A DNA stretch of 64,000 nt from the NCBI GenBank assembly GCA_017478625.1, contig JAFVDF010000005.1, positions 1-64,000 of the forward strand, in the 5' to 3' direction. The DNA is from Alloprevotella sp. (lineage in GTDB: Bacteria; Bacteroidota; Bacteroidia; Bacteroidales; Bacteroidaceae). Under the pieces are notes generated by a model that was given only the letters and a program-made list of their open reading frames with translations, had not been told where the DNA came from and searched no databases. Positions 4,323 to 31,467 of this stretch are shown piece by piece. The position numbers were made by a program, and so were the translations under genes. The first letter of the stretch is position 1, and each line of letters opens with the position of its first letter.

Positions 4323-4323
4323 T

Positions 4324-9021: not shown

Positions 9022-9041
9022 ACGCTTTAATTATTTGCAGA

Positions 9042-10283: not shown

Positions 10284-10336
10284 TCTTTACTTTTTAGGTC
10301 TTGAATTTATTAAATTTGTATTATACAACATCTGCT

Positions 10337-11257: not shown

Positions 11258-12011
11258 ATTCTGCAAGTTCTTTGGATATTGTCATATTATACTTGTTGAT
11301 GTACTTTCCTGTGGCCGTTATCATAAACCTCGATGTACCAAGATTGATATTCTCAAGTTTCAATGCCTTGAACCAGGAATGACTCGCTTTTTCTGCCATA
11401 TAAAGAAACAGGCGCTTTACTTTCTGAGACGTGCAGTTTTCCAGTAAAGTCTGAACCAACTTAGGGCGTAATGTCGTCATACTCTCCATTATATAATAGA
11501 TGTCAAGCAAAGAAGAAGATGCATCTGGCAAGTTCAGGCACTCCAATATGGCACGTTCAGGAGACGATACAAGCAAATCGTGTTGTTCTATGGTCATTGT
11601 TTCTATTCCTAACAGTTCATCACCCAGAAAAGATGTGATCATATATTTTATGGTCATATCCCATTCCTCATTTAGTAGCCATAAAGGCAACTTATTTCTT
11701 CTGTTAGTAAACAAGAATGCCATAGGCTTTCCCATTGACAGATAATGAGAGTAACCACGCATTTCCAAAGCAGTATAAGCACCTACTATGCATTGCTTAG
11801 AAAGTTGCGTATTATAGGATGAAACTGCAACCATCAGCGTTGGCGATGAACCATGTATTTTATACACCCCTTTGGATATACGATCGAGCCATCCACTTTT
11901 CATATAAGAGTGTTGCCCACGAGCATCTAATCCTTGACTTGAAAGCCAAGAGCCAAATAATACCGAGCCATGTGGGACTTGCTCTAATATTTGCTGTATT
12001 TTTGTTGCCAT
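11250..12011 (-). CDS. abiEi: AbiEi family antitoxin / transcriptional repressor
   Basis: A 253-residue protein with a basic N-terminal winged-helix region (SQGLDARGQHSYMKSGWLDRISKGVYK) and the conserved central block ending in SPERAILECLN, both seen in AbiEi antitoxins. AbiEi proteins repress their own operon by binding inverted repeats and counteract AbiEii without forming a stable complex. The gene overlaps the downstream toxin by 8 bases, giving coupled translation. The upstream AT-rich region from 12012 holds no other gene and should contain the promoter and operator. Confidence 0.88.
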   Translation of the reverse strand: MATKIQQILEQVPHGSVLFGSWLSSQGLDARGQHSYMKSGWLDRISKGVYKIHGSSPTLMVAVSSYNTQLSKQCIVGAYTALEMRGYSHYLSMGKPMAFLFTNRRNKLPLWLLNEEWDMTIKYMITSFLGDELLGIETMTIEQHDLLVSSPERAILECLNLPDASSSLLDIYYIMESMTTLRPKLVQTLLENCTSQKVKRLFLYMAEKASHSWFKALKLENINLGTSRFMITATGKYINKYNMTISKELAEYE

Positions 12012-16163: not shown

Positions 16164-16266
16164 GTACTGAAAACTCCAAGAGAGAGAGACTTTTACAGAT
16201 ATTCAAATGTACTAAAATCTGGATAATTCGAATGTATGTCAAAAGAGGGAAGAATCGCTTGTCAAT

Positions 16267-16457
16267 GGGACAAACGAACGCGAAGCGCACCCAAAGCGCT
16301 GGGTAGCAGCACTTGTTCATACTAATTGTGAAAAGAAAGTTGTGGCAAAATTAGATAAACTTGGAATAGAGAATATGTGGCTATCCAAACGGAAGAACAC
16401 CAATGGAGTGATCGTAAGAAAAAGATTGATAGGATTATAATTCCAGGATTGATGTAG
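16267..16457 (+). pseudogene. NusG/UpxY-like transcription antiterminator remnant
   Basis: One frame reads RWVAALVHTNCEKKVVAKL, then DKLGIEN near 16375; the adjacent frame continues YVAIQTEEHQWSDRKKKIDR and IIIP. Joined, this is the NGN domain of UpxY-type NusG paralogues, which in Bacteroides follow an invertible promoter and let polymerase pass the leader of long operons. Here the frame breaks at about 16378 and the KOW part is missing. Its place between the putative switch and the long operon fits that arrangement, but the gene is no longer functional. Confidence 0.72.
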
Positions 16458-16566: not shown

Positions 16567-17046
16567 ATGTCAAGTTCGGATCTGTATTATGTTGCTCTTG
16601 ATGACCAAGTTTTTGGGCCTTATTCACTTGATGAGGTTTCAGATCTTGGTTTGTTGCCAGATACATTAGTAAGTCGTTCAGATTCAGAATGGACAAATGC
16701 ATCTGAAATGCCAGAGCTAAGACATTTATTTCATTCTGATAATCAATACAATACTCAGAGGCAATCACCATTGTTTAATAATAAACAATTAATATACAAG
16801 CAAAAGAGGAAAGCTGCTTTAATAGGAGTATTAACATTAGGTCTTGCAGGTCTAGCGATAATCGGAGTTGGAGAGACATGGCGGAGTAACATATTTGCAG
16901 GAACTTCTTTTGACCAAGGAGGACTGGGCTTTGTAATGAAAATTATTTCATTTATGATTGTGTCTGTAATTGTCGCTATCCCATTCTTTATAATTTCACT
17001 AATACAGCTAATATATTATAGCATAAAACTGTCTTCAACGAACTAA
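16567..17046 (+). CDS. GYF_2-domain membrane protein
   Basis: A 159-residue protein. Residues 5-55 form a GYF_2 domain (YYVALDDQVFGPYSLDEVSD, then LLPDTLVSRSDSEWTNASEM), a fold that usually binds proline-rich peptides. After a basic linker come two hydrophobic segments, about 78-97 and 118-150, so it is a membrane protein with its GYF domain probably in the cytoplasm. It is the first gene of the operon. The large ATPase two genes downstream has two GYF_2 domains and no membrane segment, so this protein could be its membrane tether; that is inference. Confidence 0.8.
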   Translation: MSSSDLYYVALDDQVFGPYSLDEVSDLGLLPDTLVSRSDSEWTNASEMPELRHLFHSDNQYNTQRQSPLFNNKQLIYKQKRKAALIGVLTLGLAGLAIIGVGETWRSNIFAGTSFDQGGLGFVMKIISFMIVSVIVAIPFFIISLIQLIYYSIKLSSTN

Positions 17047-17050
17047 TATT

Positions 17051-17323
17051 ATGCCAACATTCATAGCAAGTCGTGTTTCTTCAGATCAGAATGCATTATA
17101 CCCAGATATGCTAGAAATAGATGATTATAATGTCATTTATTACAAAGGTTATGTGCTCGGATATACGACAACAGTTATCGCAAGGCATAATGTCGCAAGT
17201 GTTTCATTAAGTAGCGGCTTATTTTTCGCCGATGTTATTATTTCTAGCAAAGGTGGAGAATGGATTAGAGCTAGAGGATTCAGTCAAAGTAAAGCAAAAG
17301 AAATATTAAGAATTTTAGCATAA
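17051..17323 (+). CDS. Small PH-like domain protein
   Basis: A 90-residue soluble protein with alternating beta-strand patterns (YNVIYYKGYVLGYTTTVIAR, then VASVSLSSGLFFADVIISSK) and a final helix SKAKEILRIL. This layout is like bacterial PH domains, which bind lipids or peptides. It follows the GYF gene by 4 bases and precedes the ATPase gene by 6, so it is made together with them. The fold call is by pattern only. Confidence 0.65.
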   Translation: MPTFIASRVSSDQNALYPDMLEIDDYNVIYYKGYVLGYTTTVIARHNVASVSLSSGLFFADVIISSKGGEWIRARGFSQSKAKEILRILA

Positions 17324-17329
17324 GGAATC

Positions 17330-20300
17330 ATGAATACGCTCTATTTTGTTGAGTTAGATGGGCAGCAATTCGGTCCATACGAATTGAAACAAATGAAAAC
17401 ATTTGGGTTAATGCCCAATGTTCAAGTTTACTCTACATTATCAGAAGAATGGGCTCCTGTGGAATCATATCCGGAGTTAGTTGACTTTATTGCACATGAT
17501 GACACCTCTAATGATGATATTGACATCTACAATGCAACATATTATCTAAGATTGGGCGAGGATAATTATGGCCCATATTCATTGCCCGAACTGTCTTTTT
17601 TAGATATAGAAGCGAATTCTTTGTTGAGCGTAGATAATATGCATAGTTGGCTACATGCTAGCGAAGTTAAAGGGCTGTTATCAGCTATAGATTTATTAGC
17701 GGAGGAAGAAAATAATGTTGATACCCCTATTGTTGAAACGCCCAACACAGATGAACTTGAAGAGATAATTGAAGAGCAAGAGGCAGAAATTGTACAATTG
17801 AAAGACCAATTAGCAAAACTGAAAAACAAATTAGATGAAGACAAAGAATATGAATCGGATGCTCCAGCATACGATATGTCGGCTAATAATGCGTTAAACT
17901 ATTCAGAGCAAAGTAATGAGTTGTGCGCGTTGATAAATAATAAGATTTTAGTAGCGGATAGTCACACAACTATTTATCGTAAAATATTCCCATCTATTGA
18001 GAGTGAGAAACAATACCATATTGAGGAATATATTAAATTCATTAATAGCACAAAACTTACATTAGAAGTTATTATTGAAAAAACGCAAAACATCCAGTCT
18101 TCCTTCGAAAATGACATGATGCTATTAGAGAATAATGCTCAAGCTGTTCATAGAAAGTGTATAAAAGATTCAAATAAAGAGGAACGCTCATTAATAGAGA
18201 CTATAAATCAGCAGATAGAATCTATTAAAACTGCACGGAACGTAGACATTGCTATAGAGTCTCTTAAACAGACCTTAAGCTCTCGTAGAGCTGAAATCAT
18301 TTCTAAATATAAAAGAATTCAGGCCGAAGAATTAGAGCATATTGCAACAGAAAAACGCAAGGTAAAACAAGCCTATGAAAGCCTTCGTAGAGATGTATTA
18401 GTAGCGATTAAGAATGCATATAATAGCGGGAAATCATACTATGAAGAGTATTTCAATAATCTTTATGAAACATCTAAAGCTGATATTCCTTTGTGGAATA
18501 CAATCAATGATAAAGGAAATATGCCTTCATCATTAATAATAGTAGGAAATAAACAATATAGATATACGATACTTGGTGAAGACATTGTCATTAAAGAAGA
18601 CTGTTATATTGAACTACTTAACAATCAAAATCTCATAATCCGCCATAACGATAAAACAAAACAAAAGGCACATCAGATTGTAAACTCATTAGTAGGTCGT
18701 TTGATGGCATCATCATCTCCTGGCAAAGTAAATGTTGCTATGATTGATGCAGAAGAAATGGATGGTACTTGTGATGTGTTTAAGTTTCTTAATAGAAATA
18801 TTTTCCAAATTTTGGCTCGACCAGAAGATATTCGTAAGTATTTGGACGAGAAAGAGCGGCATATCGGTAATATAATCCAAAATTTGTTGTTAGGATCTGT
18901 TAAGTCATTGCATGATTACAATCAGGCCAAGGAAAACAAAGAGCCGTATCATGTGATTGTTATAGAAGACTTTCCAGTAGGATTTAATAGTGAATCTCTA
19001 CTTCTCTTACAGAAAATATTAAAGAATGGTGTTCGTGCTGGTGTAAATGTTATAATGTTAGTAAATGAGGATAAGATTGATTATTCCGAAGACACTCGCA
19101 AGACATATAATAACAGTAATATAGGACTACTTGAGCGTAGTTGTTCAGTGTATAATTTAACAAAAAGCGAAGACCAAATAGAATTTGATTCATTTACAGA
19201 TGAGCAACTACGTAAAATTGTACAGTATGTCAATTCTGGTGTTGAAATCCGTAAAGAGGACGCGATATTGTTTGCAGACTATATGACCACCAAATCTGAA
19301 TGGTGGCAAAGAAAGAGTGCAAAATATATTGAAATACCATTTGGTATGTCTGATGATAGGCAGATCCAAGAATTAAAAATCACTCAAGAAAGTGGTCAGA
19401 ATTCAGCCATTGTAATAGGTATCCCTGGTTCAGGAAAGAGCGTTTTCCTTCATGCTTTAATATGCAACGCAGCCATCAATTATTCACCCGATGAGTTAAA
19501 TATGTACCTAATTGACTTCTCTGGCGTTGAATTTAATTCGTATGCTTTACATAATTTACCACACGCTCGCGTGATTGCACCAGAAGCTGAGCGAGAGTTT
19601 GGTCTTAGCATTCTGAATGAATTGGTTGAAGAGGGTTCAAGGCGAATGGAACTTTGTAGAAATCACGATGTAAGCAATATTGTGGATTTAAAAGCCAAAA
19701 ATCCATCTTTGCATATTCCTCGACTCTTGGTTATTATTGATGAGTTCCAGAAAATATTTGAAATTGAGAATGATTTGATTAGTCGAGAGGCTAATGCAAA
19801 GGTTCACACCATTATTCAAGAATTCCGAAAATTTGGAATAAACTTGATTTTGGCGACACAAAAACTGCCATCATCATCAATTTTACCTAAAGATCTAATT
19901 GCCAACAGAGTTGTATTCAAGAGTTCTCCAGCAGATTTTTCCGCCCTTATCTCATTGACAATCAACGGAAAACTTCCACAACTACATACGGGAGAATGTA
20001 TATATAACTCAGAATCCGGCTCCCCATATGACAATCGTCAAGTACATGGGTTCTTAGTAACCAAATCTGATATTGACAAATTGCTAAATCAGATTTCAGA
20101 TTTTTCGGATGCATCTCACTATCAAAGGAAACATGATATGGTTGTATTCCGAGGTAATGATTTGCCGGAGTTCAGAAATAGAAGAGTTGCTAAATGTCAT
20201 CAAGTTCCTTCAAGTATACCAGAATCGATTGGCGTATATTTAGGGGAATCAATTTCCATTCATGAAACTGACGTTTGTGCAATATTACGCAAAGAATCAG

Positions 20301-20947
20301 CTAATAACATTTTAATATTGGGAGGAGAAGCACATGTTGCACAAAAAATTGCTTATCATGCAACTATTTCAGCTACTACAGCATATGCTGACCAGAGTGC
20401 AACATTTGTAATATTAAACTTCATGCGCCGTGAAGAATCATTGAATGAAGAGATTCAAGATGTATTTGAGTCACTACCGTTCACTTCGCAGATAATATCA
20501 AAGACGGCTGAGGTTATAGAATCACTTTCTGCAATTAAAGAAGAGATCGATGAGCGTCGCAAAGATGAAGAGCATACGCAAAATCATATCTATCTCTCAA
20601 TCTATGCATTCCAATTAGCTCGTATGTTTGATAAGGGTGGTCGACGAGGTGATGATGTATCTGAAAGTGGCGTGCTATTGGATTACATCCTAAAAAATGG
20701 TCCAGCTGTCGGTGTGTTTACCATTTTGCAATGTGACAATTGGGATAACCTTTCAAGAATCGGTAATTCCCTTTCAAGCTTTGCATATCGTGTAGCATTG
20801 CAAATGACGGAAAATGATTCTAATAAGATTATAGGTTCATCAATTGCAAGTAAGCTATTTGTATTCAATCGCCCAAGTTCGGTGAATAGAGCATATTTCA
20901 GAGACAATAATAGGAATATCAATATCAAGTTTAAACCTTATAAATAA
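17330..20947 (+). CDS. FtsK/SpoIIIE-type ATPase with tandem GYF_2 domains (type VII secretion EssC/EccC-like)
   Basis: A 1205-residue protein. Residues 3-55 and 67-120 are two GYF_2 domains (FGPYELKQM and YGPYSLPEL). A long coiled coil covers about 140-185 and 240-400. Then three ATPase-like units follow: a degenerate one (about 430-640), an intact one with Walker A GIPGSGKS at 697-704 and Walker B LLVIIDEF with D804 and E805, and a degenerate one near 1000-1205 (ILGGEAHVAQ). Three FtsK units in one chain is the plan of EssC/EccC, the motor of type VII secretion, where the N-terminal domains are FHA and there are membrane segments; here GYF_2 domains replace FHA and no membrane segment is visible. 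Small helical-hairpin genes lie directly downstream, as in T7SS loci. Confidence 0.87.
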   Translation: MNTLYFVELDGQQFGPYELKQMKTFGLMPNVQVYSTLSEEWAPVESYPELVDFIAHDDTSNDDIDIYNATYYLRLGEDNYGPYSLPELSFLDIEANSLLSVDNMHSWLHASEVKGLLSAIDLLAEEENNVDTPIVETPNTDELEEIIEEQEAEIVQLKDQLAKLKNKLDEDKEYESDAPAYDMSANNALNYSEQSNELCALINNKILVADSHTTIYRKIFPSIESEKQYHIEEYIKFINSTKLTLEVIIEKTQNIQSSFENDMMLLENNAQAVHRKCIKDSNKEERSLIETINQQIESIKTARNVDIAIESLKQTLSSRRAEIISKYKRIQAEELEHIATEKRKVKQAYESLRRDVLVAIKNAYNSGKSYYEEYFNNLYETSKADIPLWNTINDKGNMPSSLIIVGNKQYRYTILGEDIVIKEDCYIELLNNQNLIIRHNDKTKQKAHQIVNSLVGRLMASSSPGKVNVAMIDAEEMDGTCDVFKFLNRNIFQILARPEDIRKYLDEKERHIGNIIQNLLLGSVKSLHDYNQAKENKEPYHVIVIEDFPVGFNSESLLLLQKILKNGVRAGVNVIMLVNEDKIDYSEDTRKTYNNSNIGLLERSCSVYNLTKSEDQIEFDSFTDEQLRKIVQYVNSGVEIRKEDAILFADYMTTKSEWWQRKSAKYIEIPFGMSDDRQIQELKITQESGQNSAIVIGIPGSGKSVFLHALICNAAINYSPDELNMYLIDFSGVEFNSYALHNLPHARVIAPEAEREFGLSILNELVEEGSRRMELCRNHDVSNIVDLKAKNPSLHIPRLLVIIDEFQKIFEIENDLISREANAKVHTIIQEFRKFGINLILATQKLPSSSILPKDLIANRVVFKSSPADFSALISLTINGKLPQLHTGECIYNSESGSPYDNRQVHGFLVTKSDIDKLLNQISDFSDASHYQRKHDMVVFRGNDLPEFRNRRVAKCHQVPSSIPESIGVYLGESISIHETDVCAILRKESANNILILGGEAHVAQKIAYHATISATTAYADQSATFVILNFMRREESLNEEIQDVFESLPFTSQIISKTAEVIESLSAIKEEIDERRKDEEHTQNHIYLSIYAFQLARMFDKGGRRGDDVSESGVLLDYILKNGPAVGVFTILQCDNWDNLSRIGNSLSSFAYRVALQMTENDSNKIIGSSIASKLFVFNRPSSVNRAYFRDNNRNINIKFKPYK

Positions 20948-20955
20948 ATAGAATT

Positions 20956-21228
20956 ATGGCAAGTGTTATAACTAACTCTACTTCATTAAAGAAGTTTCGC
21001 AATGAGTTATTAGATACTGTAGATAATCTAAGGGAGCAGTTAAGAGCGACTGAAAATGCTATTGACGAAGTATCTCAAGAATGGAAAGACCCCCAGTTCA
21101 AAAAGTATAACGATGAATTTAGTAAAGACAAGGAACAAATAGAGCCTTTGTGCAAAAAAATCGAGGAGTATGAAGATGATGTTCTCAGGGGGCTTTATGA
21201 TATAGTATATGAATACGAAAATTTGTAA
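20956..21228 (+). CDS. WXG100-like helical hairpin protein (W-x-D variant)
   Basis: A 90-residue, highly charged helical protein. Two helices (about 8-40 and 50-85) flank a turn with W43-K-D-P-Q-F48. This is the size and layout of WXG100 substrates of type VII secretion, with W-x-D in place of W-x-G. No signal peptide or cysteine. It starts 9 bases after the ATPase gene. A secreted substrate or structural partner of the ATPase is likely by position; direct similarity to WXG100 cannot be proven by eye. Confidence 0.68.
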   Translation: MASVITNSTSLKKFRNELLDTVDNLREQLRATENAIDEVSQEWKDPQFKKYNDEFSKDKEQIEPLCKKIEEYEDDVLRGLYDIVYEYENL

Positions 21229-21244
21229 TTAAATCACGATAATT

Positions 21245-21538
21245 ATGGACATTTTTGCACATGTTAGTTCAAAGTCTCTTATAGATCTTCAATCAAATTT
21301 GAGAAAGCTGTCGGAAAGATTGAATGAAACATATGAAACATTAAAAAACAACGAGGCTGATTTAGGAGAGTCTTGGTTGGATGATAAATTCTCAGAATTT
21401 GAAGATGATTTCAAGTCAAGCAGAGAACTTATAAGTGAACTTTCTGAGAAGTATCTGCATTGGGCTAATAATTATCTTCCACCATATATTGAACTAGCTC
21501 TTAAATATGAAGCCGCCAAAACAGGATTGAGTCGTTGA
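21245..21538 (+). CDS. WXG100-like helical hairpin protein (W-x-D variant)
   Basis: A 97-residue protein of the same build as the previous gene: helix about 8-38, turn with W44-L-D-D-K-F49, second helix 50-90. Sharing W-x-D-x-x-F at the same position suggests the two are paralogues and may form a heterodimer, as EsxA/EsxB do. It lacks a signal peptide. The start ATG at 21245 is 17 bases beyond the previous stop. Confidence 0.68.
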   Translation: MDIFAHVSSKSLIDLQSNLRKLSERLNETYETLKNNEADLGESWLDDKFSEFEDDFKSSRELISELSEKYLHWANNYLPPYIELALKYEAAKTGLSR

Positions 21539-21558
21539 TTTAATATTATTATAAGATT

Positions 21559-22404
21559 ATGAGTGAACCATCAGCACATATTCGCGATCACCAATCACTT
21601 ATAGAATTAAATAATACCTTGGAGTATAGTGCAGACTCTATCCTTAAAATATTAGAGCAAGTAGACGCTTATTTAAAAGGTGTTATTGAAGCATTAAAAA
21701 AACAAATGAAAGTGCTTGAGGAGGAACTGCGTGCTGCTGAAGAAGCATTGGCAGAAGCAGAAAAAGCTCATGGTTCGTGTGTCGCGTCACAACGTTGGGT
21801 TGAGGAATACGAGGATGAAGATGGTAACACACATGGTGGATACTATACACCGTCCTGCGATAGTGAGGCTTCGGAAGTAGAACGGTGTCGAGAAGAACGC
21901 GATAGATGCCAAGAAAAGTATGAAAAGGCAAAATGTATATGTGATGATTGTGAGCATGAAATAGAAGAGTATAAAAAAGATCCAGGCTTCATAACCCCTC
22001 CTGGTGGTGAGAAATTAATGGAAGCTTTAGCTAAGGACCATACGGATAAAGCTACTTCTAAGATGCGAGAAATTCTTGCTGTGGTTGAGAGATATCTCCG
22101 ATATAATATGTCTACAAAATCCTCATGTTCTTCAACTATTCCTGCTGACATAGATGCGGCAAATGGTTCGAGTAAGACATTAAGTCCAGAAGAGAAAAAA
22201 GAACGATTTAATAGTGCGATTCAAAAAGTTATTGAGCGTCAACACAACGAGAACTATGGTAGCCGTCAGATTGCTGATGCCAATAGAGTCATAAGATGTC
22301 CTCGATGTGGAAGGCCACCAATCGCATGTATTTGCAATAATACAAGAGAAAGAGAGTACACAAGAGAGGATATACAAATTATCAGAAATGATTTTTCGCG
22401 ATGA
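21559..22404 (+). CDS. Coiled-coil protein with C-terminal CxxC zinc knuckle
   Basis: A 281-residue protein. Residues 10-75 form a long amphipathic helix (EALKKQMKVLEEELRAAEEA), followed by a cysteine-rich middle (CREERDRCQEKYEKAKCICD) and a C-terminal CPRCG-x6-CIC zinc-binding knuckle near 255-268. The N-terminal helix could be a longer version of the WXG-like hairpins; the middle cysteines might form disulfides if it is exported. It overlaps the next gene by 4 bases. Role unknown; by position, a substrate or adaptor of the ATPase. Confidence 0.7.
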   Translation: MSEPSAHIRDHQSLIELNNTLEYSADSILKILEQVDAYLKGVIEALKKQMKVLEEELRAAEEALAEAEKAHGSCVASQRWVEEYEDEDGNTHGGYYTPSCDSEASEVERCREERDRCQEKYEKAKCICDDCEHEIEEYKKDPGFITPPGGEKLMEALAKDHTDKATSKMREILAVVERYLRYNMSTKSSCSSTIPADIDAANGSSKTLSPEEKKERFNSAIQKVIERQHNENYGSRQIADANRVIRCPRCGRPPIACICNNTREREYTREDIQIIRNDFSR

Positions 22405-22922
22405 GGAATATACCGGATTTTGCGATGCAAGTGCAAGAGGCGCAAAGGCAAATCGAGGCACAGAGTGATGTTACAGCACAGGATTGGAAAGATGCTGTAC
22501 AGAAACGATATTACGACAATTATATGAATGCCTACAAAGAGAAAATGGAACTTTATGTACATGGAGGTTCTGGAATATCTGGGAAAGGTATAAATGATTT
22601 GTTAATATTTCTTGATGAGCAGATGCAAAAAATGGAAGAACTTACCGGAGTTCCGGCAGATGTCACATTCTTATGTGCTGCAGGATCTTCCTACTCTGGT
22701 TCTGTACGGGATAATTATGGCGTTGATATAAATGTTGAATCATCGCAAGAAGTACAAGGACGCAACGGAATTGTTCATAATGAGAAACAAGAACGCGATT
22801 ATTGGCAAGAAGGAGGCGGTTACTACAATGGCACACGCCCGGGACAATATTCAAATGAAGAGATCAAGCAGATAATGGACTATCGTAGTCAGGATGACTT
22901 TTATAAGAACTTTAAATTTTGA
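22401..22922 (+). CDS. Helical protein with W-x-D signature
   Basis: A 173-residue protein. The N-terminal 70 residues are helical and contain DVTAQDWKDAVQKRYYDNY with W29-K-D, like the W-x-D turn of the two small proteins upstream. The remainder is polar with Gly/Tyr-rich stretches (GGGYYNGTRPGQYSN). No signal peptide. The start overlaps the previous stop (ATGA), so translation is coupled. It may be a larger secreted effector-like or structural component; no known family recognised. Confidence 0.65.
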   Translation: MRNIPDFAMQVQEAQRQIEAQSDVTAQDWKDAVQKRYYDNYMNAYKEKMELYVHGGSGISGKGINDLLIFLDEQMQKMEELTGVPADVTFLCAAGSSYSGSVRDNYGVDINVESSQEVQGRNGIVHNEKQERDYWQEGGGYYNGTRPGQYSNEEIKQIMDYRSQDDFYKNFKF

Positions 22923-22984
22923 TCATAATTTTACCATGGAGATTAAACCAAAACAATAGATTGAATACGATTTTTAACTATTAA

Positions 22985-23788
22985 ATGTATAAATATATGG
23001 AAAATATTTTTTCTATTCCTGCCACTAAGATGGCAGCTGATGATGCGACATTGAAAGCAAAGCGTGAAGAACTCAAGAAGAAATTACTTGAGGGTAAGAA
23101 GGTAACAATTGCTCCCGATGGTAATGTTACCAAGGGTGATGATTCGTCTTCTATTGTAATTCCGAAAGGTAAGTTGGCAGCAGATGATGATATCTTGAAG
23201 AAAAAGCGCGAAGAGCTTAAAAAGAAGTTGCTTGAAGGTAAGAAGGTAACAATTGCTCCTGATGGTAATGTTACTAAGGGAGACGATTCGTCATCAATTG
23301 TGATTCCTAAAGGTAAGTTGGCTGTTGCACAGTGGTATGAAAAGGACCCGGGGCTTCTTATGGCTGAAAAGGCTGCAATGAATCATGCATTCCCTAGATT
23401 TACATTGGATAAATTGGATGATGGTCGCTTGGCGTGGGTTGGTTCCCTCAATATTGGTATTCTCGGTGATAACGAGTGGCACATTATGGCTGTATATAAC
23501 AATAACCACCCTCAACAAGTCATGGGTAGTTCTGTTCGCGTTTATTTGATACAGCCGGATATTGATGAACTCATAAAGGATCTTGGTTGGAGACCTTTGC
23601 ATTTGCTTATGGATAGCAACAACCAACTTTACTTGTGCACTGCGGAAGCTGGTAATATTAAAACCGGTAAAGAAACAACATCTGCTGCATCTGTAATTGC
23701 ATGGGCGGTTAAGTGGCTTATGTCATTTGAGTTGGTACTGACAGGTGATTTATCTCAAGAGCAGTTCAACACTCACGGGGTTATTTAA
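22985..23788 (+). CDS. E2-like (UBC-fold) protein with two N-terminal tandem repeats
   Basis: A 267-residue protein; an ATG at 22997 is an alternative start. Residues 17-64 and 65-112 are two near-identical 48-residue repeats: a charged helix (KREELKKKLLEGKKV) then TIAPDGNVTKGDDSSS and IVIPKGKL. Residues 117-267 resemble bacterial E2-like UBC domains: GRLAWVGSLNI, a P-containing turn after MAVYNNNHP, strand SVRVYLIQP, then H206 and LYLC with C218, and a final helix VIAWAVKWLMSFELVLTG. C218 is the only cysteine and sits where the thioester-forming residue is expected. With the JAB and E1-like genes next to it, a role in conjugating a protein tag is likely. No separate ubiquitin-like gene is obvious. 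Confidence 0.7.
   Translation: MYKYMENIFSIPATKMAADDATLKAKREELKKKLLEGKKVTIAPDGNVTKGDDSSSIVIPKGKLAADDDILKKKREELKKKLLEGKKVTIAPDGNVTKGDDSSSIVIPKGKLAVAQWYEKDPGLLMAEKAAMNHAFPRFTLDKLDDGRLAWVGSLNIGILGDNEWHIMAVYNNNHPQQVMGSSVRVYLIQPDIDELIKDLGWRPLHLLMDSNNQLYLCTAEAGNIKTGKETTSAASVIAWAVKWLMSFELVLTGDLSQEQFNTHGVI
23033..23320 (+). repeat. Two tandem 144-bp coding repeats
   Basis: Units 23033-23176 and 23177-23320 encode nearly the same 48 residues inside the E2-like gene. Differences between the copies are mostly at third codon positions plus a few changes in the first ten residues, so the amino-acid sequence seems to be kept by selection after an older duplication. Confidence 0.85.
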
Positions 23789-23805
23789 TATAAAATGCAT
23801 TGGGT

Positions 23806-25380
23806 ATGAGTAATTATTGTCAAACTGTAATATTCTCTGATAAAGCGTATAACGCTATTATCGACGAAACCTTCCGTAAAGACCCCATTGAAACAGGTGG
23901 TATTTTGTTGGGCCATGTGTTGGATAATGATTTATGGGTCGTCATGGAAGTGATACCTCCAGGTATAGATTCTGTTCATCAATATGCATACTTTGAATAT
24001 GATGAAAAGTTTGTGAATTACCTTGCAGAATCTGTAGCTACAAAGTATGAGAACAAATTAGAATTGCTTGGTTTGTGGCACAGACATCCAGGTAGTATGG
24101 ACACTTTCTCTGGGACTGATGACGGAACTAATCATATTTTTGCAGGCTTACGGTCTTGTGGAGCTATTTCAGGATTGGTCAATGTTGATCCAAATTTCAG
24201 ATTAACAATGCGCCATGTGTCAAATCCTTTGCATTACGAAATAGTTGATGTTGAGGTCGGAGATGACTTGATTCCAGAAAATTATTTTAAATTGAGGCAT
24301 TTCCCCGAGAAAGGGCTCAATCCGGTACCGTATTCTGAAAAAAAAAACGATTGGACGACTATCGGGAGTATGTCAGAGCAAAAGTCAAACTCTATCAACG
24401 AGAAAACAATAGCGATTCAGACAAAAAAGACTGATATAAAATATCTAAAATCTACGATACTTATTCTATTGTCAGGATTCTTCTTATCGTTCTTTGTGGT
24501 TGTACATATATGTCAAAATATTGTAGATGAAAGTGCTAGTAAGCAAAGTACTCTATTTGAACTGGTATACAACACTACCGATTCAAAAGGGATATGTATC
24601 AGAGATGCAAAAGATGCTAAGACATATATTGATAAAAAGACTAATAAAGAGATAATTAAACAGAAAGCGAAGCCTGCTGTATATATCAAACAGCATACTT
24701 CAATTAATGTTGTTAAATATGGTTTTCTTGCAATTGATGCATTGTTGATAAGCCTGATATTCATCCCATTATATCGTAAAGAGTATGTTTACTGCGGAAT
24801 AGGAAGTTTTGTGCTGGCTTTTCTTATCCTCTTACTATCTCCAATAAAATTATCATTAGCATTTATTGCTTTGATAATACTTCTTGACTTGCTGTTTAGT
24901 TTGATAAGTATTGGAGTATTAAATCTAATTGAGTTAGTCAAGGTGTATCAGAATATGCCTTGGTATCAGAAACAAAAGGAATTATTCTACGATGAGGATG
25001 CTGCAATACGCAAAGTAGAGCCAAATGCTGAACGTAGTTTTGAAGAAGGTAAACTTGTTTATACAGTCATCACAGATAGACATATTACCCGCCAGGAACA
25101 CACTTTGACTTATCAGATGATCTATTCTACTAATTACATTGATGATAGCTCAATTAGAATATATTTTATCATGCCAGAGTTGGCAGAAATGTTTACCTCC
25201 AAGAATGGGCTCAAGTCATCACATGTTAAGAGTGATGATAATGGGGATATGTATCTTGAATTTGCCCGCGAAGATAAGCGTATGAATGGAACTGAAACAA
25301 TCAAACATCTCTATAGTTGGGTAGATTCCTATAATCGTCACAGAGCAGGAGATATGTCTGTTAAATCCGAAAAATTATAA
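23806..25380 (+). CDS. JAB/MPN metalloprotease fused to membrane segments and a Cys-less E2-like domain
   Basis: A 524-residue protein from the ATG at 23806 (a TTG two codons earlier is possible). Residues 5-140 are a JAB domain with the full JAMM set: E29 (ETGG), H92-R-H94, S102 and D105 (HxH-x7-S-x2-D). These zinc isopeptidases remove or mature ubiquitin-like tags. Hydrophobic segments at about 208-232 and four near 303-378 make it a membrane protein. The C-terminal part (about 385-510) repeats the layout of the E2-like domain of the previous gene (SSIRIYFIMPE, then GDMYLEF, then TIKHLYSWVDSY) with Glu where its Cys would be. It lies between the E2-like and E1-like genes. Confidence 0.85.
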   Translation: MSNYCQTVIFSDKAYNAIIDETFRKDPIETGGILLGHVLDNDLWVVMEVIPPGIDSVHQYAYFEYDEKFVNYLAESVATKYENKLELLGLWHRHPGSMDTFSGTDDGTNHIFAGLRSCGAISGLVNVDPNFRLTMRHVSNPLHYEIVDVEVGDDLIPENYFKLRHFPEKGLNPVPYSEKKNDWTTIGSMSEQKSNSINEKTIAIQTKKTDIKYLKSTILILLSGFFLSFFVVVHICQNIVDESASKQSTLFELVYNTTDSKGICIRDAKDAKTYIDKKTNKEIIKQKAKPAVYIKQHTSINVVKYGFLAIDALLISLIFIPLYRKEYVYCGIGSFVLAFLILLLSPIKLSLAFIALIILLDLLFSLISIGVLNLIELVKVYQNMPWYQKQKELFYDEDAAIRKVEPNAERSFEEGKLVYTVITDRHITRQEHTLTYQMIYSTNYIDDSSIRIYFIMPELAEMFTSKNGLKSSHVKSDDNGDMYLEFAREDKRMNGTETIKHLYSWVDSYNRHRAGDMSVKSEKL

Positions 25381-25385
25381 CGACT

Positions 25386-26507
25386 ATGATTACTTTAGGG
25401 AAACGAAAAATTAAGCCTATTGTATATTTTCCTCTTGAACTAGAAAAGGATAAATATGTAGGTAAGATATATGGTTTACATATTGAAAATACTAACCATT
25501 ATAATATCGTTACAACGAAAAGCTATAGCAACTACTCTAACCTTATTGAATTAGGCGAGGTTGTAGAAAATAAACCCGTTAATAATCCAAACAAAGGAAT
25601 TATTGGATATTTTGAGAATGATTGTATTCAATTCATTGATTGCGAGGGAGTCGTATGCAAAAAAGAGCCGTATTCACTCAAGTTGGATATTTTCTCTCGC
25701 AATGTGGGCATCTTAGAATCAGATATAATGCTGAAAACAGGGGCAATGTTAGTTGGGTGTGGTTCTGTTGGAAGCTTAGTTGCATTAGAACTTGCGAAAG
25801 CTGGCGTTGGCAGGTTCTTGTTAATAGACAACGACATTCTCGGATATCATAATATTTGCCGTCACCAGTGTGGAATCCTAGATGTCGGTAAATATAAAAC
25901 CGATGCAGTAAAAGAGCGTATTTTGCAAATTAACCCATCAGCACATGTGGTTACTCAGAATATGACAGTTCAAGAAGTCCCTCTTAATGTATTTGACGAG
26001 TTCTGCGACGAGAACACCATTGTAATTGGTGGTGCAGACAATCGAGAGGGTGATTTGTATGCAAATAAGATTGCGAAGGAGGTTGGTATGCCTCTTATGT
26101 CAATTGGATGCTGGGAGAGAGCCTTTGCAGGAGAGATTTTCTATTGCTTGCCCGATGGAATGCCCGACTATGAGGATTTTATGTATGCGTTAGGTGATAC
26201 ATCTGGGCGTGTAAATCAAAACAGAAAATTCTATACCAATGAGGAAGAGTTGGAAAAGGCTTCGTTTGAACCGGGCATATCTGTCGATATCGACTTTGTA
26301 ACTGTGATAGCTGTAAAACTGGCACTTGATATATTAAACAGAAACAATCCTGCATTTACGCCTCGCCTACTTGGGCATCTGACTCAATACACTCTTGTTT
26401 GCAACACCAACAATCCAAAGATTGGTGGCGATATGGCAGAAATATTCTCCTATCCGTTACAGATTACAACAAGTATCGAGGTAGATTATGCACCAAAAGA
26501 AAATTAG
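25386..26507 (+). CDS. E1-like ThiF/MoeB-family adenylyltransferase
   Basis: A 373-residue protein. A ~110-residue N-terminal extension is followed by an E1/ThiF fold: GCGSVG at 124-129 binds ATP, then IDNDILGYHNICRH with D148, N156 and R159, the adenylation signature DxDxxxxxNxxR. Cysteines in SIGCWERAF and IFYCLPDG are candidates for a thioester site. E1 enzymes adenylate the C-terminus of ubiquitin-like proteins and pass them to an E2. It starts 5 bases after the JAB gene and completes an E2-JAB-E1 set. Confidence 0.88.
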   Translation: MITLGKRKIKPIVYFPLELEKDKYVGKIYGLHIENTNHYNIVTTKSYSNYSNLIELGEVVENKPVNNPNKGIIGYFENDCIQFIDCEGVVCKKEPYSLKLDIFSRNVGILESDIMLKTGAMLVGCGSVGSLVALELAKAGVGRFLLIDNDILGYHNICRHQCGILDVGKYKTDAVKERILQINPSAHVVTQNMTVQEVPLNVFDEFCDENTIVIGGADNREGDLYANKIAKEVGMPLMSIGCWERAFAGEIFYCLPDGMPDYEDFMYALGDTSGRVNQNRKFYTNEEELEKASFEPGISVDIDFVTVIAVKLALDILNRNNPAFTPRLLGHLTQYTLVCNTNNPKIGGDMAEIFSYPLQITTSIEVDYAPKEN

Positions 26508-26567
26508 TTTTATGGAAATTAGAGGTATAGACAATATGACATATGGCAATTGTATCATGATATAGCT

Positions 26568-26840
26568 ATGGGAGGTAAGTTCGTCATCTATACATACGTA
26601 ATATCAGTCATTCTAATGACTTTTAAGAGACCATCTAACACTATTTACTATGTAAAATCAGGGGAACTCCCTATCAAATTCGGTTGGAGTTATTTGCTGA
26701 TAACTCTATTTCTTGGTTGGTGGGGAATTCCATTTGGACCGATTTATTCGATTGGTTCTATTATTACTGCATTTACAGGAAAAGATATTACGGAAGGGGT
26801 TTTAGACAATATAAACAGAAACATAAAAACAGAAGTTTAA
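26568..26840 (+). CDS. Small membrane protein
   Basis: About 90 residues from the ATG at 26568; a TTG at 26550 would add six. Two hydrophobic segments (GKFVIYTYVISVILMTF and FGWSYLLITLFLGWWGIPFG) and an IYSIGSIITAF tail make it an integral membrane protein. It is the first of seven genes in a row beginning with Met-Gly. No family recognised. Confidence 0.7.
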   Translation: MGGKFVIYTYVISVILMTFKRPSNTIYYVKSGELPIKFGWSYLLITLFLGWWGIPFGPIYSIGSIITAFTGKDITEGVLDNINRNIKTEV

Positions 26841-26856
26841 CTATTAAATATTAATT

Positions 26857-27420
26857 ATGGGACAAACAAATTACACAATTAATGAGTATGGAGAAATAAT
26901 TCGAGAAGATTATTTTTTCTCTTCAGTAAAAGGAACAACACCACAGGTGCTACCTACAAATCGTAAAGTGTGGAAGATTTGGCTACTATCTTTCCTTACA
27001 TTAGGTATATATGGTGTTGTAGTCATGTTTGCAATGGCAAAAGAGACAAACATCTCATGCGCTGACGACGGGAAGCATACAAGAGGTTTCTGGGGTGCAA
27101 TTCTGCTATCAATAATAACACTCGGCATATATGCCTTTGTGTGGCAGTATAAGTGGGCAGATAGAGAATACTCTTATCTCTCGCGGAATAGAAAAGATGG
27201 AGGCATACTAAGCGGTGGGAGTCTCGTTTGTTTAATGTTAGTTACATTACTAATGACTTTTGCAGAGCAATATGCTTCCCTGTGTTATATGATGGATATA
27301 TATTGGATAATATATGCTGTTCAATTGCTGTGGGGAATTTTTGTGATGTCTAGATTTGTGAAACAGCATAACACTGTCAATAGAATATATAATCTTAACA
27401 CATTCGGTCAAAAGGCATAA
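26857..27420 (+). CDS. DUF4234-like membrane protein with N-terminal INEYGEIIRED motif
   Basis: A 187-residue protein. Residues 6-18 read YTINEYGEIIRED, the motif shared with neighbours. Then two repeated blocks around LTLGIYGVVVMF and ITLGIYAFVWQY, typical of DUF4234 membrane proteins, and a last segment near 145-165 give about four membrane helices. Role unknown. The motif lies before the first membrane segment, so it is probably in the cytoplasm. Confidence 0.75.
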   Translation: MGQTNYTINEYGEIIREDYFFSSVKGTTPQVLPTNRKVWKIWLLSFLTLGIYGVVVMFAMAKETNISCADDGKHTRGFWGAILLSIITLGIYAFVWQYKWADREYSYLSRNRKDGGILSGGSLVCLMLVTLLMTFAEQYASLCYMMDIYWIIYAVQLLWGIFVMSRFVKQHNTVNRIYNLNTFGQKA

Positions 27421-27426
27421 ATAGTT

Positions 27427-27720
27427 ATGGGATTCTTTAAACGCCTTTTTGGTTGTAAAAAGAAAACAGATACTACTGAATCAGGAGATGTTTTTTCATC
27501 TCCTGACCTTCAGTTTTATGTGAATTTTGAAGATACTATATTTGGGCCATTTTCATTGTCTGAGATTAAGGAGTATCCTTTGCTTGAAGACACATTGATT
27601 ACAACCAACACACTTGGTGGTGAATGGTACGAAGCAAAGTATTTTGAATGTTTCGATGAAATGTTTAATCCTCATTTAGGATTTCGCATTGCAGAAGATG
27701 GAACAATAATTAGAGAATAA
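27427..27720 (+). CDS. Small GYF_2-domain protein ending in the EDGTIIRE motif
   Basis: A 97-residue protein with a short N-terminus carrying basic residues and a cysteine (FKRLFGCKKK), a GYF_2 domain at about 28-80 (FYVNFEDTIFGPFSLSEIKE, then LGGEWYEAKYFE) and a C-terminus FRIAEDGTIIRE. Here the motif shared with neighbours forms the very end of the protein, directly before the stop, which would leave it exposed. It is 6 bases after the DUF4234-like gene and 2 bases before the next. Confidence 0.75.
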   Translation: MGFFKRLFGCKKKTDTTESGDVFSSPDLQFYVNFEDTIFGPFSLSEIKEYPLLEDTLITTNTLGGEWYEAKYFECFDEMFNPHLGFRIAEDGTIIRE

Positions 27721-27722
27721 AT

Positions 27723-28214
27723 ATGGGAATGAATAGTAATATCAAGGAAAATTTTGCTATTGCAGAAGACGGTACAATTAAACGCGTTTCTAATGAATTA
27801 GATGTTGCGATGCTTAACATTATTCGAGTTGGAGCAAATAAAGATGATATATTAGCAGCATATAAAGCTCGTAAGAAATGTTATCAGATTTGCAAGAAAG
27901 TTGCAAAACGCCTAGATTACAGAGAATATGTTGAGACTCTACAATTAGATAATTTCCCTAATGAGTTAAAGAAAGCTGACTATGGTGAACGATATGTAAA
28001 TATCTTTAGGTGGCTTATTATCTGTGTTATCATAGGTATAAGTTGTTTGGGATTTGGATTGTATGTGCTATATGAGTATCATTCAGATTTTGAGATTTTG
28101 TTGGGGTTGGCTTTTGTATCAGTGGCTGTTGGCCTATATTTTATTGTGTCAAGATTCTTTGTAAAGAAACTTTCTAGCATTTCTCAATCCATTAAAAGCA
28201 TAAAATCTGTATAA
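27723..28214 (+). CDS. Membrane protein with N-terminal IAEDGTIKR motif
   Basis: A 163-residue protein. Residues 11-25 read FAIAEDGTIKRVSNE, the shared motif. A helical soluble region follows (30-95), then two hydrophobic segments (about 97-118 and 126-147) and a basic tail. No known family. Its motif is nearly the same as the C-terminal motif of the gene just upstream. Confidence 0.72.
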   Translation: MGMNSNIKENFAIAEDGTIKRVSNELDVAMLNIIRVGANKDDILAAYKARKKCYQICKKVAKRLDYREYVETLQLDNFPNELKKADYGERYVNIFRWLIICVIIGISCLGFGLYVLYEYHSDFEILLGLAFVSVAVGLYFIVSRFFVKKLSSISQSIKSIKSV

Positions 28215-28215
28215 A

Positions 28216-28914
28216 ATGGGAATCATCATATTGCTACTCGCAATTGTAATTTTATTATTAGCCTATTTTGTATATAAGAGTAACACATCCTCCTCTACTT
28301 CCTCTTATGTTATAAAAGAGGATGGTACAATATTAAGGCAGGATAATGAAATTGAATCAGATTCAGTGGACCAAAATGATATAACAAACACTAACCCTTT
28401 TTCCTTGGAGAATAACAACCGTCTTCTTATTACTTCTATTCAGACACAAGAAGAGGCAACTCAGGAAGAGTTTATTCTTAGAAAAAGAATGTTGGCTGGT
28501 GAACAAATAGAATTTTCTCAGTGCAATGGCCTACTTGATACAGTTGATGATTTCGAATTATGGGAGCTTATAGTGAAAAATCATATAAGCCAACCTAATA
28601 GGCCACCTGTTGATCTTATTAACAATTATTCTTCTGAACGAGCTATCGATTTTATGGAGATGATATATCGTATTGTTAGTTCTTGTGTAGCAACAAATAG
28701 TGAATTCTGTCAATTGTCCCCAGAGTTTCTAAAGAACATTATCGTTTTTTCAAAGAATATTGATGCTTTGTATTGTATAGCTGATATGCAAGAGTCAGAC
28801 TTAATAGAGTCAAAATATGACGAAGATTTATTTAATGAACTTAAACGGCGTGCATATAATAGATATAATTTCCTAACGACTAAAAGAAATAAGCATTATG
28901 GGAATGGATTTTAA
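28216..28914 (+). CDS. Membrane-anchored protein with IKEDGTILRQDNE motif
   Basis: A 232-residue protein with one N-terminal hydrophobic anchor (residues 3-20), a Ser/Thr-rich linker, the shared motif at 31-45 (YVIKEDGTILRQDNE), and a mostly helical soluble domain. The anchor has no cleavage site, so the rest may face the cytoplasm if it follows the positive-inside rule (VYKSN after the helix). It overlaps the next gene by 17 bases. No known family. Confidence 0.72.
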   Translation: MGIIILLLAIVILLLAYFVYKSNTSSSTSSYVIKEDGTILRQDNEIESDSVDQNDITNTNPFSLENNNRLLITSIQTQEEATQEEFILRKRMLAGEQIEFSQCNGLLDTVDDFELWELIVKNHISQPNRPPVDLINNYSSERAIDFMEMIYRIVSSCVATNSEFCQLSPEFLKNIIVFSKNIDALYCIADMQESDLIESKYDEDLFNELKRRAYNRYNFLTTKRNKHYGNGF

Positions 28915-29305
28915 GGTTAATGAGTATGGTGAAATTATCAGAGAAGATAATGAACTATTAACTCTTGAACAGGAATACTTAAAAGGTGTTCCTTTGAACA
29001 TAAAAGTTAGGAAACAACTTGCAGCTGAATCTCAGAACTCCAAAGTGCTTGAGGCTTGTCTGAAAGAAAGAGCCATTACCGTGAGAAGAATAGTTTGGGA
29101 CAACCCACATCTGCCTCCCGAGATGCGTAAAGAAGCAACTCGACAAAAACTATTGGATAAAGGTCGCAATTCCAAAACCGAGCACAAAGATAATGGAGAA
29201 GCCAATTGTTGCCTATGGTTTTTTATTATTGTAGGACTTTTGATTGGTTTATTTTCTTATCTTTCAGGGGAAATGTGGTTCCGGGAAATGTGGTTCCCCT
29301 TTTAA
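28898..29305 (+). CDS. Small protein with N-terminal NEYGEIIREDNE motif and C-terminal anchor
   Basis: A 135-residue protein. Residues 5-19 read FKVNEYGEIIREDNE, the shared motif. Then a helical, charged region (RKQLAAESQNSKVLEACLKE, then a WDNPHLPPEMR turn) and one membrane segment near 112-128 (LWFFIIVGLLIGLFSYL). The middle is like short variants of leucine-rich-like repeats with NPxLPPE turns, but it is too short to name. The start overlaps the upstream gene in another frame. Confidence 0.72.
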   Translation: MGMDFKVNEYGEIIREDNELLTLEQEYLKGVPLNIKVRKQLAAESQNSKVLEACLKERAITVRRIVWDNPHLPPEMRKEATRQKLLDKGRNSKTEHKDNGEANCCLWFFIIVGLLIGLFSYLSGEMWFREMWFPF

Positions 29306-29323
29306 CCATTTATAAAATCTAAC

Positions 29324-29746
29324 ATGGGACAAGAATTTAAAATTAATGATTGCGGAGAAATAATCCGAGAAGAACAAAATACAACTAAAAAGACAAATTG
29401 GTGGGCTATTGTATCGTTTCTCTTCTTTTTTGCACTTTGCATATTATCTTATGCACTGTATGAATCTTATGAAAGAAATGACCATTTGAGTTGGCAACGG
29501 AGTAACTTGTACAATGAATTACAAACAAAAGAAGCAACTATAAATAGCCTTCAAAACCAACTCCCCCAAACATATTATACAAAGTATTCCAATCAGGCTA
29601 TATATTCTATTTATTGGGACGGCTCCTTTTTTAAAACTGGCTCATATTATGCCGATTCAGATGTTCGTGTAACGATCTATCTTCAAAAAGAAGGTTATGG
29701 TATGACAGAATTTGGATGGATACCAATGAATTGTTTGCGAAAGTGA
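29324..29746 (+). CDS. Small membrane protein with N-terminal NDCGEIIREE motif
   Basis: A 140-residue protein, the last of the operon. The shared motif is at 5-17 (FKINDCGEIIREE), a membrane segment follows at about 27-46, then a short coiled coil and a C-terminal beta-rich part (YYADSDVRVTIYLQKEGYG, then EFGWIPMNCL) that resembles a small SH3-like domain. With the membrane helix between them, motif and C-terminal domain should lie on opposite sides of the membrane. Confidence 0.72.
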   Translation: MGQEFKINDCGEIIREEQNTTKKTNWWAIVSFLFFFALCILSYALYESYERNDHLSWQRSNLYNELQTKEATINSLQNQLPQTYYTKYSNQAIYSIYWDGSFFKTGSYYADSDVRVTIYLQKEGYGMTEFGWIPMNCLRK

Positions 29747-30700
29747 TTCAAGAAAACTATTTGTGTTGGCCAATTGATATGCTAACCGTCAGTATCAAAC
29801 AGATTCCATTGGCAAGTTATGCCTTGACTGTAAATAATGTTGCGATTATTCGTAGCATTATCGTAAGAAATAATACAGATTCAGATAATAGGACCACAAA
29901 CAAGGGAATAACATGAAAATCATTATTTTCGTATGAAGATTAAATGAATTTATGATATGAGTATGTCGGATGATAGAAGATACGAATTATCAATGTAACA
30001 CGCAAACCGACGAAAAGTCCGGATTGTGGCAGTGAAGTCTTTGATATTATATATTGCACAGGCGACTTGACAGAAACTGACTTTTTGTTTGAGTACCGTA
30101 AAAATGCCATCATAGGCGGTGAAAATATCCCCACGTCAGCTGCTGTTCGTGCGGATATAAACGCTTCAAGAAAGTAAATTCAGACGGAACAGATGCCCCT
30201 ATAAAAGTAAAAACGTTGAAAGACATCCGTAAAGCACCTGCATCCACTATCAATTGGTCAACTGAACTGGTTGGCCGAGACTTGGAAAGTAATTGCATGT
30301 AGTGCATCATTATAGTCTGGATGTAACTACAGAACTTGATAAGCGAGAGACGCTAAAGATAACAGCCGTGAGTAGAAGCGATGCGGAAGATCTTGCATGG
30401 GAGTTGGTTGCTAAGTTGTCGTAGGACTTAAAGGTTGGCTCTGCTCCAAAATAGAGAATGTCAAAATCAAAGAAGAATTATGAGGTGTAATGTGATAAAC
30501 GACATTACATCAAAACAATATCCACGAAAAATCTCTCGAATTACAAATTATCCAATAGGTGGGACAGCGTTCCACTTATTTATTGTACTGAGACGTGATG
30601 TGGTTGATAATAATGATTGGATTGATACTCTTTCGTTCGTATTTGCAGGTGATGTGCAGATGTTCCCCAGTACTGCGACCTGTATTGCCGGTAATACCTA
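29747..30700. other. Decayed region between the operon and the second recombinase
   Basis: No intact gene. Traces of coding appear: a frame at about 29985-30175 reads RKPTKSPDCGSEVFDII, then YCTGDLTETDFLFEYRKNAI, and stops; another near 30195-30300 reads APIKVKTLKDIRKAP. They have no usable start and no family I know. A 66-codon frame overlapping the last gene (29716-29916) and an 88-codon frame at 30435 look accidental. No clear terminator follows the operon. Confidence 0.4.
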
Positions 30701-31467
30701 ATGTCTCAAAACACGGTGAGAGCCTACAACTTCGCCGTGCGCGACTTCTTTGCGCACTACAAGGAACTCAACAAACGGAACTTGTTGCTTTCTAAGACGC
30801 ACCTTATAGAGACGTTCAAACCCAAAACGGTGAACCTACGCATCCAAGCACTAAACAAGTATCTCATTTTTTTGTGCGCCGACCGCAACTGCACCTTAAA
30901 TCCGTCAAGGTGCAGCAGCGTTCGCACTTGGAAAACGTCATCTCCAATGCCGACTACGTTTTCCTCAAGAACAAACTGCGCCACGAGTCCAACCAGGAAT
31001 GGTACTTCGTCGTGCGCTTCCTCGCAGCCACGGGTGCACGTGTAAGCGAGTTGGTACAAATCAAGGTGGAGCACGTACTCATCGGGTACTTCGACATCTA
31101 CAGCAAAGGCGGCAAGATACGCCGTTTGTTTATCCCCAAGAAACTACGCGAGGAAACGCAGGTTTGGCTACAGAAACAGTAACGCACTACAGGCTATTTG
31201 TTCCTAAACCGTTTCGGGCAACGCATCACCACACGTGGCATTTCCCAGCAGCTCAAAATCTACGCAGAACGCTACGGGCTGAACACAAAGGTGGTCTATC
31301 CGCACTCCTTCCGCCACCGCTTCGCCAAAAACTTTTTGGAGAAGTTCAACGACATATCCTTGCTGGCCGACTTGATGGGACACGAAAGCATAGAGACCAC
31401 GCGCATATATCTCCGCCGCACTTCCAGCGAGCAACAGGCTATCGTCGATAAAGTTATTACTTGGTAG
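30701..31467 (+). pseudogene. Tyrosine recombinase, inactivated by a frameshift and a stop
   Basis: Three pieces make one XerC/D-like recombinase. The first (30701-~30885) reads SQNTVRAYNFAVRDFFAHYK, a core-binding domain. After a frame change near 30885, the second continues HLENVISNADYVFLKNKLRH and the catalytic start FLAATGARVSELVQIK. A TAA at 31180-31182 interrupts it, in phase with the third piece (to 31467), which carries HSFRHRFAKNFLEKF and LMGHESIETTRIYLRR with the HxxR, H and Tyr residues. At least two disabling changes are visible. It lies 290 bases from tRNA-Asp, as integrases of tRNA-targeting islands often do. Confidence 0.85.

Follow-up and report, generated by a model that had tools for sequence, protein, structure and literature searches.

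Relays of E1, E2 and JAB proteins in bacteria have recently connected bacterial defence with the ubiquitin biology of eukaryotes. In type II cyclic oligonucleotide-based antiphage signalling systems (CBASS) the relay works without a ubiquitin-like protein: the E1 and E2 activities conjugate the C-terminal Gly or Ala of a cGAS-like enzyme and the JAB protein (Cap3) removes it, and, in the sections of the source on which we draw, the conjugated C end is conserved where the operon encodes full-length Cap2 and Cap3 and is not conserved where the architecture differs (PMC10097602). Bacterial operons that bring E1, E2 and JAB genes together were catalogued by Iyer et al. in 2006 (rows 6a-6e, of which row 6e includes RWD-like inactive E2 folds), and in the rows of that catalogue used here FtsK or ESAT-6 go with YukD (row 11) and not with the E1/E2/JAB set (PMC1779556). 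The two parts that type VII secretion systems (T7SSs) have in common, according to a review of 2024, are the membrane-bound EccC/EssC and EsxA, with EccC carrying two membrane segments (PMC11217815). Here we analyse an operon that combines elements of these systems and lies at positions 16567 to 29746 of a 64,000-nucleotide stretch of DNA from Alloprevotella sp. (assembly GCA_017478625.1, contig JAFVDF010000005.1, positions 1 to 64,000 of the forward strand), the whole of which we call the window. The operon joins an FtsK/EccC-type ATPase and WXG100-type helical hairpin proteins to an E1, an E2 and a JAB protease, and we read it, with a probability of roughly 45%, as a defence-island operon of two modules that also exist apart, namely a cytosolic T7SS-like motor and a CBASS-like, ubiquitin-less conjugation set. 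Among the matches listed from the open-access literature none described this combination, most subscription papers lying outside that search.

The operon comprises 17 open reading frames (ORFs; g1 to g17), all on the + strand and closely packed, with intergenic gaps mostly under 25 bases, the largest being 62 (22922 to 22985) and the next 42, before a TTG-start ORF at 26550. The conjugation set begins with the E2 gene g8 (22985..23788), whose product matches the PADLOC E2 model at 6.1e-11, carries two N-terminal tail repeats and has a sole cysteine, C218, which is invariant in three relatives; its predicted fold, a low-confidence model, appears closest to CdnG-E2. It is followed by g9 (23800..25380), a JAB/JAMM protein (Prok-JAB in Pfam, 2.4e-8) with membrane segments by hydropathy, in which the JAMM residues E31 and H94-x-H96-x7-S104-x2-D107 are invariant in five sequences. 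Its C end is a degenerate E2-like domain that lacks the cysteine (E2 profile 8e-11 and 2.4e-10) and that recalls, in a protein held at the membrane, the RWD-like E2 folds listed as inactive in the catalogue of Iyer et al. (PMC1779556). The third gene, g10 (25386..26507), encodes an E1/ThiF adenylating enzyme (ThiF in Pfam, 2.8e-24) of about 370 residues with an N-terminal extension, which a low-confidence structure model suggests to be a beta-rich domain. The first-pass annotation, which a model had made from the sequence alone, overlooked the second E2-like domain; it had otherwise named the 17-gene co-directional run, the single-cysteine E2-like protein, the complete JAMM set and the E1, and all of these hold. 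Two plasmid JABs from Gloeothece (L057 11998-12543 and L058 11977-12522) are 44% identical to that of the window, each being followed by a large gene annotated as a WD40 repeat protein, and neither E1 nor E2 was found in these two stretches. In an alignment, the E1 of a Stygiobacter metagenome-assembled genome (MAG; L061 11287-12420) shows two CxxC pairs, presumably a zinc site, which the window E1 lacks.

Set against the described relays, the operon resembles type II CBASS in having E1, E2 and JAB genes, no ubiquitin-like protein that could be seen, a defence-island position and an E2 model nearest to CdnG-E2, with a predicted active cysteine (C218) in the E2 and the full JAMM residues in the JAB. 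It differs in that E2 and E1 are encoded by separate genes rather than by a fused Cap2, that the JAB carries membrane segments and a Cys-less E2 domain, that the partner is an FtsK/WXG100 unit, and that a CD-NTase is missing: none was found among the 17 proteins with Pfam or among the ten scanned with PADLOC, where positions 415-530 of a cyclase model 542 positions long aligned to the E2 at 0.029. Short type II CBASS forms with E2 alone exist. Like the operons of Iyer et al., the locus keeps E1, E2 and JAB together, and it differs from them in that no ubiquitin-like gene was found in it; operons of row 6d, and Bil-like ones, include such a gene. As the first-pass annotation had also noted, no free ubiquitin-like protein is obvious, with no Pfam match among the 17 proteins, of which g2, g11 and g14-g17 have neither an assured family nor a structure model. 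Ala is the C-terminal residue of two of the 17, g2 and g12, which are both conserved in the relative described below, and Gly of none; in a locus where no E1, E2 or JAB was seen (L031), the counterpart of g2 extends to a different C end. The E1 itself is closest by sequence to MccB among solved structures (2.1e-13; PaaA 1.7e-10), and its profile scores higher against MccB, UBA5 and MoeB than against Cap2. In size, N-terminal extension and best matches it is like MccB and PaaA, from which the operon differs in having an E2 and a JAB alongside and no precursor peptide that could be seen.

The motor block occupies the first seven genes. The ATPase, g3 (17330..20947), matches FtsK_SpoIIIE in Pfam at 5.7e-25 and the EccCa, EccCb and EssC models of NCBIfam, all far under the model cut-offs (TIGR03924: 3.6e-25, 88.8 bits against a cut-off of 509); its matches among solved structures are 4nh0 (3.9e-17, labelled FtsK/SpoIIIE, which we take to be the EccC of a T7SS), EccC5 (1.8e-15) and YukB (1.7e-13). 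The Walker A motif GIPGSGKS stands at residue 697, and D804-E805 follows from IIDEFQ starting at 802, both as first annotated; by eye, the first and third ATPase units lack an intact Walker A. The hairpins with W-x-D turns that the first-pass annotation had seen in g4 (20956..21228) and g5 (21245..21538) prove to be of the WXG100 type: singly they fall below the Pfam threshold for WXG100 (0.003 and 0.021), and a profile of 12 rows from eight loci (A6) reaches EsxA at 2.2e-8 together with other WXG100 structures; the profile also matched the designed protein 7mcd (8.2e-8), in which no single stretch passes alone. Downstream lie g6 (21559..22404), a coiled-coil-like protein with a weak counterpart in L031 (blastp 1.7e-4), and g7 (22401..22922), which has a C-terminal extension and may be a third, divergent hairpin, judging from a profile match of 0.0059 and a blastp match of 4.5e-6 to its L031 counterpart. 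Upstream of the ATPase, g1 (16567..17046) combines a GYF_2 domain (Pfam, 9.6e-9) with two membrane segments by hydropathy, and g2 (17051..17323) is a small PH-like, Ala-ending protein (bPH_3 0.00048, under the cut-off) whose homologue adjoins the FtsK gene in L031. Of the four GYF_2 domains initially proposed, the one in g1 and the two at the N terminus of g3 stand, and the fourth, in g13, is weak (0.21).

That the two blocks belong together is indicated by the Alistipes sp. MAG RGIG9547 from yak colon, in which the gene order from g1 to the tail is the same (L062) and the E1 is 96% identical to that of the window. Over 14 gene pairs the ratio of nonsynonymous to synonymous substitution rates (dN/dS) is 0.01-0.19, with dS of 0.24-3.3, several values exceeding 1 and thus near saturation; from these ratios and the common order we conclude that purifying selection has maintained the two blocks in each genome, that the pairing of FtsK with E1/E2/JAB is therefore real, and that the conjugation set is likely coupled to the motor. 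A rather unlikely, if serious, competing explanation is that two independent island modules, an FtsK/WXG100 unit and an E2-JAB-E1-motif unit, merely neighbour each other and serve separate functions. The blocks are indeed separable, since each occurs without the other. In a profile search of 11 loci with FtsK and hairpin genes (the window, L062, L031-L035, L054, L055, L056 and L059), E1, E2 and JAB were found in the window and L062 and not in the other nine stretches, which measure 20-26 kb except that L032 is only 10.8 kb and that L031 and L032 run to contig ends; conversely, the Stygiobacter MAG (L061 and L063, one genome) has E2, JAB, E1 and a motif gene, with no FtsK or hairpin within 20 kb in L061. 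In RGIG9547, moreover, a 1.2 kb spacer of small ORFs (L062 6535-7598), missing from the window, parts g7 from the E2. Against independence stand the gene order and tight packing shared by two genomes that have diverged to the dS values given, the mere 62 bases between the blocks in the window, and the presence of GYF_2 domains in both blocks, the tail one being weak. The idea of a hybrid operon accordingly survives, in that at least two genomes conserve it as a single unit, and the expectation that the blocks are normally linked does not. As to the spacer, L062 7317-7598 has a hydrophobic end and resembles the N end of the E2 (67% over 30 residues).

The count of 11 loci leaves aside seven weaker FtsK loci (L036-L042, 40-49 bits) without a match to the hairpin profile, as well as L144, the only other match at 1e-40 in a wider ATPase survey, which has short broken frames and no adjoining hairpin; that survey scored two candidates per genome and is therefore an undercount. 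In the family, an FtsK match above 90 bits occurs in six of 151 genomes, including the window's own, and some match occurs in 145, the next best at 49 bits, most of which we take to be ordinary FtsK. JAB matches were found in 10 of 395 genomes of the phylum, strong only in the own genome and in G185 (1.2e-43), the rest being 6.4e-6 or weaker; the E2 matched one of 395 genomes of the class, its own. E1 matches at 1e-10 are present in 64 of 197 genomes of the class to which G185 belongs, and we take G185 (782 bits) to be the only close relative among them and the other 63 (62.5 bits or less) to be generic ThiF. Three scans of viral contigs gave no relative of E1, E2 or FtsK. Among plasmids there was no E2 match, JAB relatives occur in three records (Gloeothece and Hymenobacter), and the E1 matches in 222 records, the best 15 of which show 27-31% identity over at most 59% of the query, appear to be generic ThiF. 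The estimate of rarity rests on genome samples, because the broad contig scan (two loci) used poor peptide patterns.

The first-pass annotation had offered protein tagging coupled to export as one option. One explanation, which we consider unlikely, is a T7SS-like machine for export or competition in a Gram-negative bacterium, with the conjugation set modifying exported or membrane proteins. In its favour are the matches of the ATPase to EccC5 and YukB, its place beside WXG100 hairpins, the many membrane proteins, and the occurrence of FtsK and hairpin genes in one stretch on plasmids of Caballeronia, Rhodococcus, Deinococcus and Helicobacter. The ATPase, however, lacks a membrane segment, no 19-residue window exceeding a hydropathy of 1.6, so that the N-terminal anchor is missing; and neither EccB, EccD, EssA, EssB, EsaA or YukD (of which distant forms could escape) nor a toxin family nor an outer-membrane part was found among the Pfam matches of the 17 proteins or the NCBIfam matches of the ten scanned. 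Given a motor without membrane segments and no channel partner found, and in a host that belongs to the Bacteroidota, the operon does not, strictly speaking, count as a T7SS. We know of no established job for FtsK/WXG100 pairs outside Gram-positive bacteria. In Caballeronia (L054) and Rhodococcus (L055) the plasmid pairs lie near VWA, PP2C, Ser/Thr kinase and CARF genes, or near TerD genes. In L031 (10437-15411, - strand) the hairpins are followed by a coil protein and, by eye, several related proteins in a row that look secreted and carry C-x-x-C repeats, and that are possible cargo or partners.

Behind the E1 gene, the tail begins with g11 (26550..26840), a small membrane ORF with a TTG start and no counterpart in L062, a doubtful gene; together with g1, g12 and g14-g17 it makes up seven small membrane proteins by hydropathy, in keeping with the seven or more first counted. 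The last six proteins share an 11-residue motif of the FKINEYGEIIR type, which the first-pass annotation had overlooked. It lies near the N end in g12 (26857..27420; four membrane segments, DUF4234 at 5e-17, last residue Ala; YTINEYGEIIR at residue 6), g14 (27723..28214; FAIAEDGTIKR at residue 11), g16 (28898..29305; FKVNEYGEIIR at residue 5) and g17 (29324..29746; FKINDCGEIIR at residue 5), past a membrane segment in g15 (28216..28914; YVIKEDGTILR), and one residue before the C end in the weakly GYF_2-like g13 (27427..27720; FRIAEDGTIIR); five of the six have membrane segments, g14-g17 being membrane proteins. As a regular expression the motif occurs only in these six among 40,505 residues of window ORFs, with one weak match in 124,622 residues of the remaining contig, and a position-specific scoring matrix built from the window and L062 copies gives the six 27.5-35.5 bits, against at most 14.8 elsewhere among the 149,337 positions scored. 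L062 likewise has six motif genes, partly other genes than in the window, so that the tails of the two copies differ. In Stygiobacter the gene directly after the E1 has a weaker copy, SRINEKGEITR, at 17.5 bits (next best there 10.3). The tail repeats of the E2 (VTIAPDGNVTK) were rejected as instances at only 4.0 bits, as was a candidate in L031 at 14.7 bits, which is background level. At the DNA level the motif pattern is no marker on its own, with two home matches and one in each of four others among 201 family genomes against four control matches, and 23 matches among 296 phylum genomes, including two home and one Stygiobacter gene, against 8 control matches.

The assignment to defence, the option of the first-pass annotation that fits best with the defence-gene setting of both full copies, is likely because of that setting. 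On the left of the window operon, on the opposite strand (3264-12011), lie genes for Avs2 (1565 residues, 1976.9 bits in PADLOC), an LmuA/Avs1a-like metallo-beta-lactamase-fold protein, two weakly SIR2-like ORF pieces, AbiEii and AbiEi. Downstream of the RGIG9547 operon there is a 1710-residue helicase with DUF4011, AAA and restriction endonuclease domains (L062 15384-20516; PDC-S37 model, E 0; Hhe 2.5e-146), and beyond it AbiH (3.6e-38) and type I HsdS and HsdR; of this helicase gene nothing but the start is left in the window (29776..29876, +, 91% DNA identity over 101 bp to L062 15381-15481). The locus L033, without E1, E2 or JAB, likewise has AbiEii, FRG (PDC-S15) and helicase neighbours.

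We propose that module A, an FtsK motor that resembles that of a T7SS but is cytosolic, together with its WXG100 hairpins, coil proteins and GYF_2/PH-like adaptors, would encounter at the membrane a cue from a phage or plasmid, and that module B, in which conjugation is likely because the enzymes are present, would run, as type II CBASS does, a reversible ubiquitin-like conjugation that needs no ubiquitin-like protein of its own. The E1 would adenylate the C end of an operon protein, the E2 would join it through C218 to targets, the membrane-held JAB, aided by its own Cys-less E2 domain, would remove it, and the membrane proteins would be recruited through their shared motif. An improbable extension of this proposal is motif-addressed conjugation, in which the 11-residue peptide, at either end of changing membrane proteins, recruits the relay to the WXG100/FtsK motor and the modifier is an Ala-ending operon protein (the PH-like g2, or g12), joined to motif or invader proteins on infection. 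Several points weigh against the two-module defence reading. Searching the solved structures with a profile of the E2 gave no E2, confidence in both structure models is low, and the three invariant cysteines of the E1 (C91, C158 and C339, in three sequences) include none singled out as catalytic. Stygiobacter has no counterpart of g2 or g12 in its 20 kb, no other known sensor or effector was found in the operon with Pfam, NCBIfam or PADLOC, and only two genomes show the full combination. Membership of a defence island is by neighbourhood only, and such islands also carry genes with other roles. Very improbable, finally, is an envelope maintenance or stress system in which conjugation controls the turnover of the motif proteins and the motor extracts them, since the membrane segments of the JAB and the motif in six of the last seven proteins, five of the six with membrane segments, are outweighed by a rare, patchy, island-borne operon of low G+C relative to its right flank with differing tail genes. 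The operon, with its recurring peptide on membrane proteins, is a testable object for asking whether ubiquitin-less conjugation extends beyond CBASS and whether WXG100/FtsK motors can serve defence.

The host assembly measures 1.26 Mb and is 59% complete. The operon stretch has a G+C content of about 33-39%, against about 42-51% in the right flank and 35-45% in the left, and is bordered by a tyrosine recombinase at 14485 on the left and recombinase-like frames at 30701-31467 on the right (the first frame at only 0.0022), with a TraG/TraD C-terminal piece at 13561 and a tRNA-Asp at 31756. A Bacteroides-type promoter pattern gave no matches above chance. In RGIG9547 the gene immediately before the operon belongs to the NusG family (L113 1433-2014, NusG 3.6e-12), and a remnant of this gene is left in the window (16255..16444, +, 89% DNA identity to part of the L113 copy); its product may serve as an antiterminator for the long operon. 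Also upstream of the RGIG9547 operon, at L113 2800-4148, two ORFs resemble by eye a macrodomain and an ADP-ribosylglycohydrolase.

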